In this document: in pieces, positions 21,204-24,212 of the stretch
Layout of the letters: each line of letters opens with the position of its first letter
Numbering within the stretch: the stretch's first letter is position 1
From: Leptolyngbya sp. FACHB-261
GTDB taxonomy: Bacteria; Cyanobacteriota; Cyanobacteriia; FACHB-261
DNA: 64,000 nt
Direction: 5' to 3'
NCBI RefSeq assembly: GCF_014696065.1
Contig: NZ_JACJPL010000031.1
Span: forward strand, 248,001-312,000
The notes under the pieces: model-generated
The model's input: the letters and a program-made list of their open reading frames with translations, nothing else
The model's database searches: none
Told to the model about the DNA's origin: nothing
Position numbers and translations under genes: made by a program

Positions 21204-21605
21204 CTAAGCGAATAGATATCCGGAAAACGGCAGCTTGTCCGAGGCAAGCTGCTGCTCAATCGTCTTCGTGAGCGGCGTTTCAACATCGCCTGTGTGCTTG
21301 GTCGTAACCGTTTCAATTAGCACAATCCAGCATTCGTCCTTGGCAACCGGATTGTGCATCACACCTTTGGGCACCACACAAAATTCACCCTCACCCAGTT
21401 CCACATCACCATCTTCAAACTGGATCACCAGTCGCCCTTTGACCACCTGAAATAGCTCATCTTCGTTGTCATGCTTGTGCCAAGCAAGCTCACCCTTAAG
21501 CTTTGCGACCTTGATGTACTGGTCATTCACTTGGCTCACCACCTTAGGCGACCAAAACTCCGTCACGCTAGCCAGTTCGGTCTCGAAGTTCTTCGCAACT
21601 TTCAT
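21204..21605 (-). CDS. Cupin domain protein
   Basis: 133 residues from the ATG at 21605, chosen over a TTG one codon earlier because AGGAGG lies seven bases upstream. The cupin motif 1 region is ELAWHKHDNEDELFQVVKGR with two His and a Glu for metal. Motif 2 is GEGEFCVVPKGVMHNPVA with the final His. This is a one-domain beta-barrel cupin of the kind often annotated as mannose-6-phosphate isomerase-like. Substrate is unknown; metal binding is likely from the intact His/Glu set. Confidence 0.9.
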   Translation of the reverse strand: MKVAKNFETELASVTEFWSPKVVSQVNDQYIKVAKLKGELAWHKHDNEDELFQVVKGRLVIQFEDGDVELGEGEFCVVPKGVMHNPVAKDECWIVLIETVTTKHTGDVETPLTKTIEQQLASDKLPFSGYLFA

Positions 21606-21656
21606 CAATGCCCTCCTGATTCAGTTTGTCCTGCTAGCCGGGAACAAGAGCCAAGG

Positions 21657-24212
21657 TTAGACCCCTACAATTAATTGCCACAAACCCCAAGTCAAAGCAA
21701 GAGCTGCAAAATGCTGAGGCAGCAGCAACCGAAACGGCTGACGGGCAATCTTCTGCGTAAGCACAACCGTGAGTAGCAACGAAGCCAACAGCGTCACTGC
21801 CTGCAAGAATTCCACCACAGCAGGATGGGCCACAAATACCGGCAATGTCCCCATGCCATAGCCAAACGTCGCTGCCCCTACCGGCAGCAGACGACCCGCC
21901 TCCGTCAAGCCCAACCGCAGATAGTGAGCCAGACTGCCACCCAGCACCAGCGGCAGATAGCCATAGGCCAGTTCGATGAACGAACGGGGTTTCAGCTTGC
22001 GGCTAAACAGCCGAATCAGACCATAAGCCAGCAAAGTCACCGCAGTGGGAATGAGCAAAATCAGCATCGAGGCCCCAGCATGGACCCAGAAATTCTCTAA
22101 ATCCCAGCTCAGCCCCAATCGCGGCAACAGCTCCGGCAAGCGATGGAGAAATGTGCCACCAAACAGCAACAGCAACAACGCCACTTCATAAGTGGTTGGC
22201 GTGTGACTAGTCCACAATTCAATGCCAGGCGGACGCAGATTCAATTCCACCGAGCGGTGCGGGCAGGCTTTGAGACAGGTCATGCAAAGCACACAGTCGC
22301 GGTTCTCAGAAAGTTGTGCCGGATGGGAATAAACAGGGCAACCGAAGGTTTCTAGTCCTTCGCCTTTTTGAGGACCGCCCTTATAACACTGATAAGTCGT
22401 GCACTCCGCCGAACACACACCCTGTTGCGCCCGCAATTCAACCATCGAAAGCTTGGCAAATAGACCATTCATGCCCCCAATTGGGCATAGATAACGACAC
22501 CAAAAACGCCGCTCAAACAGCAGCGAAAAGATTACTGCTCCCGCTGTAATGAGCAACAACAAACAGCCCGATAAATAAGCCACATTCTCCAGGTGCCACA
22601 ATTCTTCCCAGAGAAAAATCAGCGTGAACAACCCAAACAGAAACCAGCCGCCCCAACGCTCAGCACTCTCACGAGGCCAAGTCTTAAGCTGACGCGGATA
22701 GATCGCCAGGGATAGCTTCTGGGCAACTTCGCCATAGATCATGAACGGGCAGACCGAGCACCACAGCCTTCCCACAAACGGGAAGGCTACCAAGATTAGA
22801 GGCCACCACCAGGCCCAAAAAAAATTCAGCGCCAGGTTTTGATCCCGAGTTTGCGGTCCAAATAATAGCAGGGCCACAACAACGGCAAAAAAGCCAAAAG
22901 TAAAACCGTAGTTAATGCGATCCGGCCACCAGGGACTGCGCAAAAAATTACGCAAAGCAGGGTAAGCGTTGAGCAAATTCAACCGGAACGAGCGCTTCTT
23001 TTCGCGGGTTCCCCAGAATACTTCTTCGGTAAGTTCTGTAGCATCGCCAGTCTCGCGTCGCGATTGCACAATTGCCCGTTCCACTAAGCTCTGAAGTTCT
23101 GGCAAATTGCCGGGAAAATCGTAGCTTTGCAAACGGCGCAGCGCTTCCGGTGAAATGCTGGGACGGGCAATACTCTCGGCTCGACTAAACAGACTGGCAT
23201 AGTAATTGACCTGGGCTTCAATGTCTTCTTTACGCACCCTCAAAGGCGGCACTTTGATCGTGTGTCCCAGCAGTTTGCGCTCGTCACTGAGTCCCGGTAC
23301 CACCTGTTCAGCCGTGAAGATAATGCGGGCTTCGCTAGTTTGAGCGGCAGATGGTTCCCCGTCCCGCGACACCGGACTGTAAGTGCCATCGCGCATTAGC
23401 ACCTGAAGCTTGGTCAGCAGCTCGGGGCGCAGATCTTGGGCGTGGTCGAGAACCAGGGTGCCCTGACCTAGCAGCGCCAGCAGACCTAATTTGCCACCTG
23501 TCCGCCCAAACAGATCGGCCCCACTAGTCTGAAGCGCACCACAGTTCAAACGGATCAACGGCTCGCGGCGGTTCGGGGACATGAAGTGAATCAGAGCGGC
23601 AGCATTGACCTTACCGGTACCCGCTTCGCCAAAAATCAAGACCGGACGCCGATCGTTAGCAGCTTCGCGGATCTGCTGACGCAAGCGCACAGCATAGCGA
23701 CTAGAGCCGACAATGCCACGGGTGGCTTTGGGTACCAGGTAAGGCCGCAGAGTGTTTGAGCGCTCCTGCTCTAGGGCCAATTGCGAGGCTACTGTTGCCA
23801 GTTCATCAGCCAACTGCTGCGAGACGACGCGAGCGATCTGTGGATACTGGCGGCTCAGCGCCTCGAACTCGGCTTTGGGGATCGTCCAGAGTTCGCCATC
23901 GCTTAGAGTAATCACCGTTTGCTGCGCCGGACGATCGAGTAGCAACTCTTGCAGGTGAATCACAGCACCAGGGAGTAGACTGGCTGCCTCAGCCGGACCA
24001 CTGGGGCTAGTGTGGTAGGTTTCCAATCGCCCTTGGCGCAGAATGTACAGCGCCTGCGGTGGCGTGTCTTCCAGAACCAAGCGGCGGTTTTCCTGAAAGG
24101 GCTCGACCACGACGGCAGCCGCTAGCGCTGCCACCACCTCATCACTCAGCACATTCAGCGCAGTCATCTGCTGCAACCAACTCACCTGGGAAGGATCTGA
24201 AGCGGTAGACAT
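21657..24212 (-). CDS. Fusion: cNMP-binding domain, degenerate NtrC-type AAA+, NapH/NosR-like 4Fe-4S membrane module
   Basis: 851 residues. Residues ~15-135 look like a cyclic-nucleotide-binding fold (ALYILRQGRLETYHT). Residues ~165-400 resemble sigma-54 activators: Walker A GEAGTGK (195-201), RLNCGALQTSGADLFG, Walker B LVLDHAQDL, and FPGNLPELQSLVERA. The GAFTGA loop is absent, Walker B Glu is His, and the sensor-II Arg of the usual PGNVREL is Pro. From ~430 there are about nine to ten membrane spans with WCSVCPFMIYGE (484-495), WCRYLCPIGGMNG (571-583), CSAECTTYQC (600-609) and CVLCMTCLKACP (640-651), the polyferredoxin pattern of NapH/NosR/CcoG relatives. The Fis-type HTH expected after the AAA domain is replaced by this module. 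It may be a redox or nucleotide-sensing membrane electron-transfer protein. Confidence 0.85.
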   Translation of the reverse strand: MSTASDPSQVSWLQQMTALNVLSDEVVAALAAAVVVEPFQENRRLVLEDTPPQALYILRQGRLETYHTSPSGPAEAASLLPGAVIHLQELLLDRPAQQTVITLSDGELWTIPKAEFEALSRQYPQIARVVSQQLADELATVASQLALEQERSNTLRPYLVPKATRGIVGSSRYAVRLRQQIREAANDRRPVLIFGEAGTGKVNAAALIHFMSPNRREPLIRLNCGALQTSGADLFGRTGGKLGLLALLGQGTLVLDHAQDLRPELLTKLQVLMRDGTYSPVSRDGEPSAAQTSEARIIFTAEQVVPGLSDERKLLGHTIKVPPLRVRKEDIEAQVNYYASLFSRAESIARPSISPEALRRLQSYDFPGNLPELQSLVERAIVQSRRETGDATELTEEVFWGTREKKRSFRLNLLNAYPALRNFLRSPWWPDRINYGFTFGFFAVVVALLLFGPQTRDQNLALNFFWAWWWPLILVAFPFVGRLWCSVCPFMIYGEVAQKLSLAIYPRQLKTWPRESAERWGGWFLFGLFTLIFLWEELWHLENVAYLSGCLLLLITAGAVIFSLLFERRFWCRYLCPIGGMNGLFAKLSMVELRAQQGVCSAECTTYQCYKGGPQKGEGLETFGCPVYSHPAQLSENRDCVLCMTCLKACPHRSVELNLRPPGIELWTSHTPTTYEVALLLLLFGGTFLHRLPELLPRLGLSWDLENFWVHAGASMLILLIPTAVTLLAYGLIRLFSRKLKPRSFIELAYGYLPLVLGGSLAHYLRLGLTEAGRLLPVGAATFGYGMGTLPVFVAHPAVVEFLQAVTLLASLLLTVVLTQKIARQPFRLLLPQHFAALALTWGLWQLIVGV

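Follow-up and report, generated by a model that had tools for sequence, protein, structure and literature searches.

A cyanobacterial fusion of a membrane iron-sulfur module with CRP-type and NtrC-type AAA+ domains that have lost classical signature residues

Introduction

Membrane proteins of the NapH/MauN type (TIGR02163) are commonly composed of about four N-terminal spans with two Cys-Pro motifs, followed by two [4Fe-4S] motifs that are predicted to face the cytoplasm. For NapH, quinol oxidation by the membrane helices has been proposed, and function depends on the CX3CP motifs (PMC5928378). The same four-span module with two Cys-Pro motifs is found in NosR and RdhC (PceC) (PMC5928378), and two 4Fe-4S motifs are present in NosR as well. 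Bacterial enhancer-binding proteins (bEBPs) such as NtrC, PspF, FleQ and VpsR, by comparison, are built around an AAA+ core and lid, while the cNMP-binding domains of CRP/FNR regulators and PKA/PKG kinases carry a long helix behind the fold. FleQ and VpsR are regulators and not purely sigma54 motors. VpsR has been listed among the bEBPs without the GAFTGA motif, and Cyanobacteria are reported to lack sigma54 (PMC3162934).

Here, a gene of Leptolyngbya sp. FACHB-261 is described in which domains resembling all of these systems are joined. It differs from NapH in its N-terminal cNMP and AAA+ domains and in the absence of visible nap genes nearby, and from NosR and RdhC (PceC) in that no FMN-binding domain is detected by Pfam and no nos or rdh genes are seen near. 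The closest stand-alone relatives of its membrane part are Deinococcus ficus WP_027463891.1 and haloarchaeal proteins named '4Fe-4S binding protein', whose alignments cover the greater part of the membrane module, including its C-terminal spans, at about 32% and 27% identity, respectively. Both lack the cNMP and AAA+ parts, and the haloarchaeal copies additionally lack several of the ferredoxin cysteines.

Gene layout and distribution of the fusion

The window, by which the whole analysed stretch of 64,000 nucleotides is meant, contains the gene on its minus strand as one frame of 851 residues with an ATG start, running from 24212 down to 21660 with the stop codon at 21657-21659, whereas the plus strand over 21657-24212 is full of stops (Table 1). 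The initial annotation had read this frame as a union of a cyclic-nucleotide-like domain, a sigma-54-activator-like AAA+ domain and a polytopic module with iron-sulfur motifs, and had proposed the Pfam models cNMP_binding, Sigma54_activat and Fer4_5 as a check. All three were found above their curated cut-offs, namely cNMP_binding at residues 38-123, Sigma54_activat at residues 167-303 (E 4.1e-15) and two Fer4_5 matches (1.5e-9), together with AAA_lid_14 at residues 325-405 (E 3.5e-13). As had also been claimed, no helix-turn-helix (HTH) domain is matched by Pfam in the 851-residue protein; in the AlphaFold model, the membrane spans come after the lid. Structure prediction was informative for the soluble part and the spans, both well modelled, and poor at the iron-sulfur stretch.

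Table 1 Features of the fusion gene (positions in the window)
Feature	Position	Strand	Basis
Whole gene, 851 aa fusion protein (clade A)	21657..24212	-	ORF, Pfam, orthologues of similar length
cNMP-binding (CRP-type) fold, residues 38-123	23844..24101	-	PF00027, E 3.4e-14
Long helix linking cNMP fold to AAA+, residues 125-158	23739..23840	-	AlphaFold, block pLDDT about 77-91
NtrC-type AAA+ core without GAFTGA loop, residues 167-303	23304..23714	-	PF00158, PDB sequence and fold matches
Degenerate Walker A, GEAGTGKV, residues 195-202	23607..23630	-	Column counts
Degenerate Walker B, LVLDH, residues 253-257	23442..23456	-	Column counts
AAA+ lid, residues 325-405	22998..23240	-	PF25601
Polytopic membrane module, about nine predicted helical spans	21669..22931	-	Model helices
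C485-x2-C488-P, predicted cytoplasmic end of TM2	22746..22760	-	Invariant, 111/111 and 38/38
C572-x3-C576-P, after TM4	22482..22499	-	Invariant; Pfam Fer4_5 552-588
Ferredoxin-like stretch, residues 600-651, eight Cys	22260..22415	-	Invariant Cys
His690, conserved intramembrane His	22143..22145	-	108/111 clade A, 38/38 clade B
His763, conserved intramembrane His	21924..21926	-	105/111 clade A, 34/38 clade B

Among 194 genomes drawn from the phylum, a strong match was obtained in 52 genomes of the same class, most of them full length and with 54-67% identity, and four of these 52 have a divergent clade (B or C) instead of clade A. Since, according to the listings, 74 to 95 of the 194 sampled genomes belong to this class, the window's own clade A occurs in at least half of the sampled Cyanobacteriia. 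All domains lie in one frame in 52 of 52 aligned members, with both PF00158 and PF25601 as well as PF00027 present in each. The fusion is hence real, and an assembly artefact or a sequencing error joining two genes, which the initial annotation had considered, is ruled out by the recurrence of the full-length, one-frame fusion across many Cyanobacteriia genomes. In its own 6.9 Mb genome the gene is single-copy, and no other Sigma54_activat match there is strong, the remaining eight scoring E 5.5e-7 or weaker. A scan of named genomes yielded at least 514 relatives, of which the 80 best come without exception from cyanobacteria, among them Nostoc, Fischerella, Calothrix, Leptolyngbya-like, Pleurocapsa and other genera. 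As searches were run on genomes of the phylum, on plasmid records and in the one named-genome scan, the same fusion may also exist outside the phylum.

Two further clades were distinguished. Clade B shares approximately 40% identity with clade A, has 100% tree support and, at the applied threshold, was detected in 44 of 390 Cyanobacteriia, with plasmid-borne copies in Aulosira and Pseudanabaena. Clade C lacks the cNMP part and is known from two small genomes. In the sampled Cyanobacteriia, the AAA+ part was never met without the iron-sulfur part or vice versa, while some members lack the cNMP part, examples being seen in all three clades (L057, L058, L059, L047, L048, L049). Relatives of the membrane module without AAA+ occur in Deinococcus and haloarchaea, as mentioned above. 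The clade A copies of genomes G076 and G093 carry one in-frame TGA in the matched stretch and are possibly decaying. Presence of the gene follows neither PFOR nor NiFe hydrogenase in the genome sample. A published description of the architecture, or of clade B together with cysK, was not found in a search with subscription journals mostly outside its range. Residue counts given below refer to 111 clade A orthologues and 38 clade B proteins or loci.

The membrane iron-sulfur module

The model places spans at residues 428-451, 460-486, 514-538, 545-565, 674-690, 708-736, 745-782, 797-823 and 827-848. A positive-inside count over the loops favours a cytoplasmic N-terminus; by this count, the Cys-Pro motifs and the ferredoxin stretch share one side of the membrane with the cNMP/AAA+ part. 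The four cysteine clusters of the initial annotation are fully borne out, as all 12 cysteines are invariant in both clades (111/111 and 38/38). Eight of them, arranged as C600/C604/C609/C625-P and C640/C643/C646/C650-P, fit two predicted [4Fe-4S] clusters, although this stretch stays under the Pfam cut-offs for Fer4 families and is modelled with low confidence.

As a domain reading, the proposed assignment to the NapH/NosR type is right. It agrees with the cysteine arrangement and with a match to NCBIfam NapH/MauN at residues 479-657 (E 4.9e-15), but this match reaches only 55.7 bits against a cut-off of 213.05, and in all members the first motif is CX2CP and the second CX3CP, while the NapH/NosR type has two CX3CP motifs. 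Compared to NapH, the protein is also extended at its C-terminus by about 190 residues, which hold five further predicted spans and conserved histidines. Besides the two listed in Table 1, of which His763 is also aligned in the Deinococcus relative, His711 is conserved in clade A. No significant fold match to the membrane module was obtained in the PDB (best E 1.2).

The cNMP-binding and AAA+ domains

The fold of the N-terminal domain matches those of CRP/FNR and PKA/PKG, and the long helix behind it probably sits, as judged from the AlphaFold model, where CRP has its dimerisation helix. In contrast to these receptors, the family has lost the glutamate of the phosphate-binding cassette and mostly also the arginine, and no winged-helix DNA-binding domain follows. 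In the window's protein, H86-L87 take the place of the G-E and Q98-T99 that of the R-S/T of CRP-type receptors. The Gly-Glu pair is absent in every clade A member possessing the domain; position 87 is never Glu and is Leu in 104 of 111, and position 98 is Arg in only 17 of 111. In clade B, the position of the pocket Glu is occupied by Tyr in 34 of 38. On these alignments, the classical cyclic-nucleotide-binding residues are lost throughout the family.

For the AAA+ core, sequence matches in the PDB are FleQ, NtrC1 and PspF, and the fold matches NtrC1 (3m0e, TMt 0.71). The label sigma-54-activator-like is thus appropriate for the fold of core and lid, but not for the functional motifs. GAFTGA is found in none of the 111 clade A proteins, with a gap at this place in the alignment to FleQ, and neither is the Walker B Asp-Glu (0/111), which is replaced by Asn-Asn in 106 and by Asp-His in the window's copy; elsewhere in the family, the motif reads L[VIL]LNN. 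Relative to FleQ, the window's copy is three residues short in the arginine-finger stretch and the other 110 proteins lack even more, and no Arg of the window's protein aligns with the FleQ Arg pair (arginine fingers). The sensor II Arg is mostly replaced, with Pro371 in the window's copy and Lys, Arg or Thr in the family. Walker A reads GEPGL[E/G]KD elsewhere in the family, and the residue before the P-loop Lys is not Gly (mostly Glu, also Asp and others) in 91 of 111 clade A proteins, while clade B retains G-K-T in 37 of 38. An acidic residue following the P-loop Lys is normal in enhancer-binding proteins (PMC7175178) and was for this reason not counted as a loss. The P-loop Lys itself is invariant in clade A (n = 111), its flanking residues nearly so.

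A gene for sigma54 (PF04552 above cut-off) was found in 0 of 98 genomes of the phylum, including the organism's own genome. Together with the losses of GAFTGA, Walker B, arginine fingers and sensor II, this makes it very likely, as far as can be judged from the alignments, that the domain is an NtrC-derived AAA+ fold operating without ATP hydrolysis or sigma54 contact. A membrane-tethered activator of sigma54-dependent transcription, as might be read from the Sigma54_activat match and from the name 'nitrogen assimilation regulatory protein' given to a clade B member in the database, is effectively refuted by the missing rpoN (in agreement with PMC3162934), the missing GAFTGA and the missing HTH. 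Separately, a protein of 653 residues in which two Sigma54_activat domains with lids stand in tandem was observed in genome G106 of another class of the phylum (L053:5249-7210).

The strict conservation of GEPGL[EG]KDN and LNN indicates that the AAA+ domain still does something, and given the invariant P-loop Lys, binding of some ligand is conceivable. The window's copy, with an almost canonical P-loop (GEAGTGKV) and the Walker B Asp, could still bind ATP. Binding of c-di-GMP in the manner of FleQ is unsupported: the Arg-Asn pair that follows Walker A in FleQ aligns with Ala-Leu in the window's protein. A working AAA+ ATPase gated by cyclic nucleotide, which would drive or gate the electron carrier, draws on the window's P-loop and Walker B Asp, on G-K-T in clade B and on the P-loop Lys, but is highly improbable with the Walker B Glu missing in all 111 proteins, the shortened arginine-finger stretch, the lost cNMP Glu and the absence of GAFTGA. 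The suggestion of the initial annotation that electron transfer is gated by a nucleotide is weakened likewise by the family-wide loss of residues for cNMP binding and ATP hydrolysis, the P-loop Lys being what speaks for it.

Gene neighbourhoods

Comparison of neighbourhoods in other cyanobacteria, another check named at the outset, gave no conserved neighbour for clade A and a frequent one for clade B. In the window, a small cupin gene (21204-21608, minus strand) lies 48 bp downstream of the fusion gene on the same strand; neither this cupin nor the upstream alanine racemase is near any of 100 orthologue loci. Gene clusters common to 10-12 clade A loci are lineage-specific. For clade B, in contrast, 27 of 38 loci have a cysteine synthase gene within 5 kb, compared to 3 of 111 in clade A (Fisher p 1e-17, without correction for kinship and therefore overstating the case, as the loci are related), and in 21 of 38 this gene lies directly downstream on the same strand. 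A representative of these cysteine synthases scores above the cysK equivalog cut-off. Recurrent near clade B are, furthermore, genes for rhodanese, nudix, nitronate monooxygenase, psbA, Rieske and SQR-like flavoprotein as well as cytochrome bd (cydAB), HemN, heme oxygenase, AcsF and NrdG, some of these names denoting sequence resemblance only. Several of them are associated in cyanobacteria with low oxygen or sulfide (PMC5061849, PMC12466478, PMC13421787, PMC5295598).

On Aulosira laxa plasmid2 (L198) and Pseudanabaena galeata pPg_03 (L199), the clade B gene is accompanied by cysK, psbA, petC and rhodanese genes, and on pPg_03 also by DsrE and glutaredoxin genes. These plasmid clusters are candidates for mobile sulfide/low-oxygen photosynthesis islands. 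In genome G157 (L045:8513-12627), genes resembling heterodisulfide reductase subunits lie upstream of the clade B gene and encode cysteine-rich and 4Fe-4S proteins and an FAD protein, of which the 4Fe-4S protein was checked with Pfam.

The adjacent cysteine synthase provides a link to sulfur and, together with the connection of NosR to NosZ activation (PMC5928378), could point to a metal-cluster maturation or sulfur-transfer factor that assembles or repairs another enzyme and does not carry electrons for metabolism. No client enzyme gene is found near clade A, the NCBIfam matches of NapH/NosR type shown are to NapH models only and the FMN domain is missing, so that such a role is improbable.

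Proposed role

Taken together, the features are read here, with roughly even confidence, as those of a cytoplasm-facing membrane [4Fe-4S] electron carrier fused to a dead cNMP/AAA+ platform and acting in low-oxygen or sulfide redox balance. In analogy to the proposal for NapH, electrons would move between the quinone pool and the membrane helices with their conserved histidines, and the Fe-S clusters might donate them to, or accept them from, a soluble partner, for example ferredoxin. The CRP-like and NtrC-like domains would have kept their folds while losing their classical chemistry, and may serve as a self-assembly, docking or ligand-sensing platform controlling electron transfer. Low-oxygen or sulfide redox balance is probably the task for clade B, from whose surroundings it is deduced; for the window's clade it is an extrapolation, and the clade B surroundings may not carry over. 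Against this reading stand the lack of a conserved clade A neighbour, the lack of a PDB fold match for the membrane module, the poorly modelled Fe-S stretch, the CX2CP form of the first motif, the P-loop and Walker B Asp of the window's copy with their potential for ATP binding, and a distribution that follows neither PFOR nor NiFe hydrogenase.

Many of the same observations could be accommodated by a membrane redox sensor, in which the Fe-S/quinone module would respond to oxygen, sulfide or the state of the plastoquinone pool, with the AAA+/cNMP part signalling to a partner through its assembly state, without DNA binding. Retention of regulatory-type domains with a nearly invariant P-loop environment, the constant pairing of AAA+ and Fe-S parts and the sulfide and low-oxygen genes often near clade B are in line with such a sensor, as are the regulators FleQ and VpsR among the close sequence or fold relatives of the AAA+ part. 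It is nevertheless the less probable reading, since Pfam finds no output domain (HTH, kinase or cyclase) in the protein and clade A has no conserved partner gene, and since 12 invariant cysteines in a NapH-type arrangement exceed the need of a simple sensor. A recent review on redox signalling in cyanobacteria (PMC13421787), moreover, gave no match to cyclic-nucleotide or sigma-54 terms.

Returning to the electron carrier, its broader form is put forward only tentatively: a non-hydrolysing NtrC-type AAA+ platform would serve a quinone-linked Fe-S carrier in sigma54-less cyanobacteria, with one branch residing in mobile sulfide/low-oxygen photosynthesis clusters. For annotation, caution is warranted, as the database name 'nitrogen assimilation regulatory protein' is misleading for this family. 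Clade B with its own cysteine synthase is a candidate component of cyanobacterial adaptation to sulfide and low oxygen. The family as a whole would illustrate the fate of a sigma54-type AAA+ domain in a sigma54-free phylum, where it is strictly conserved, very likely catalytically broken and attached to a putative electron carrier.
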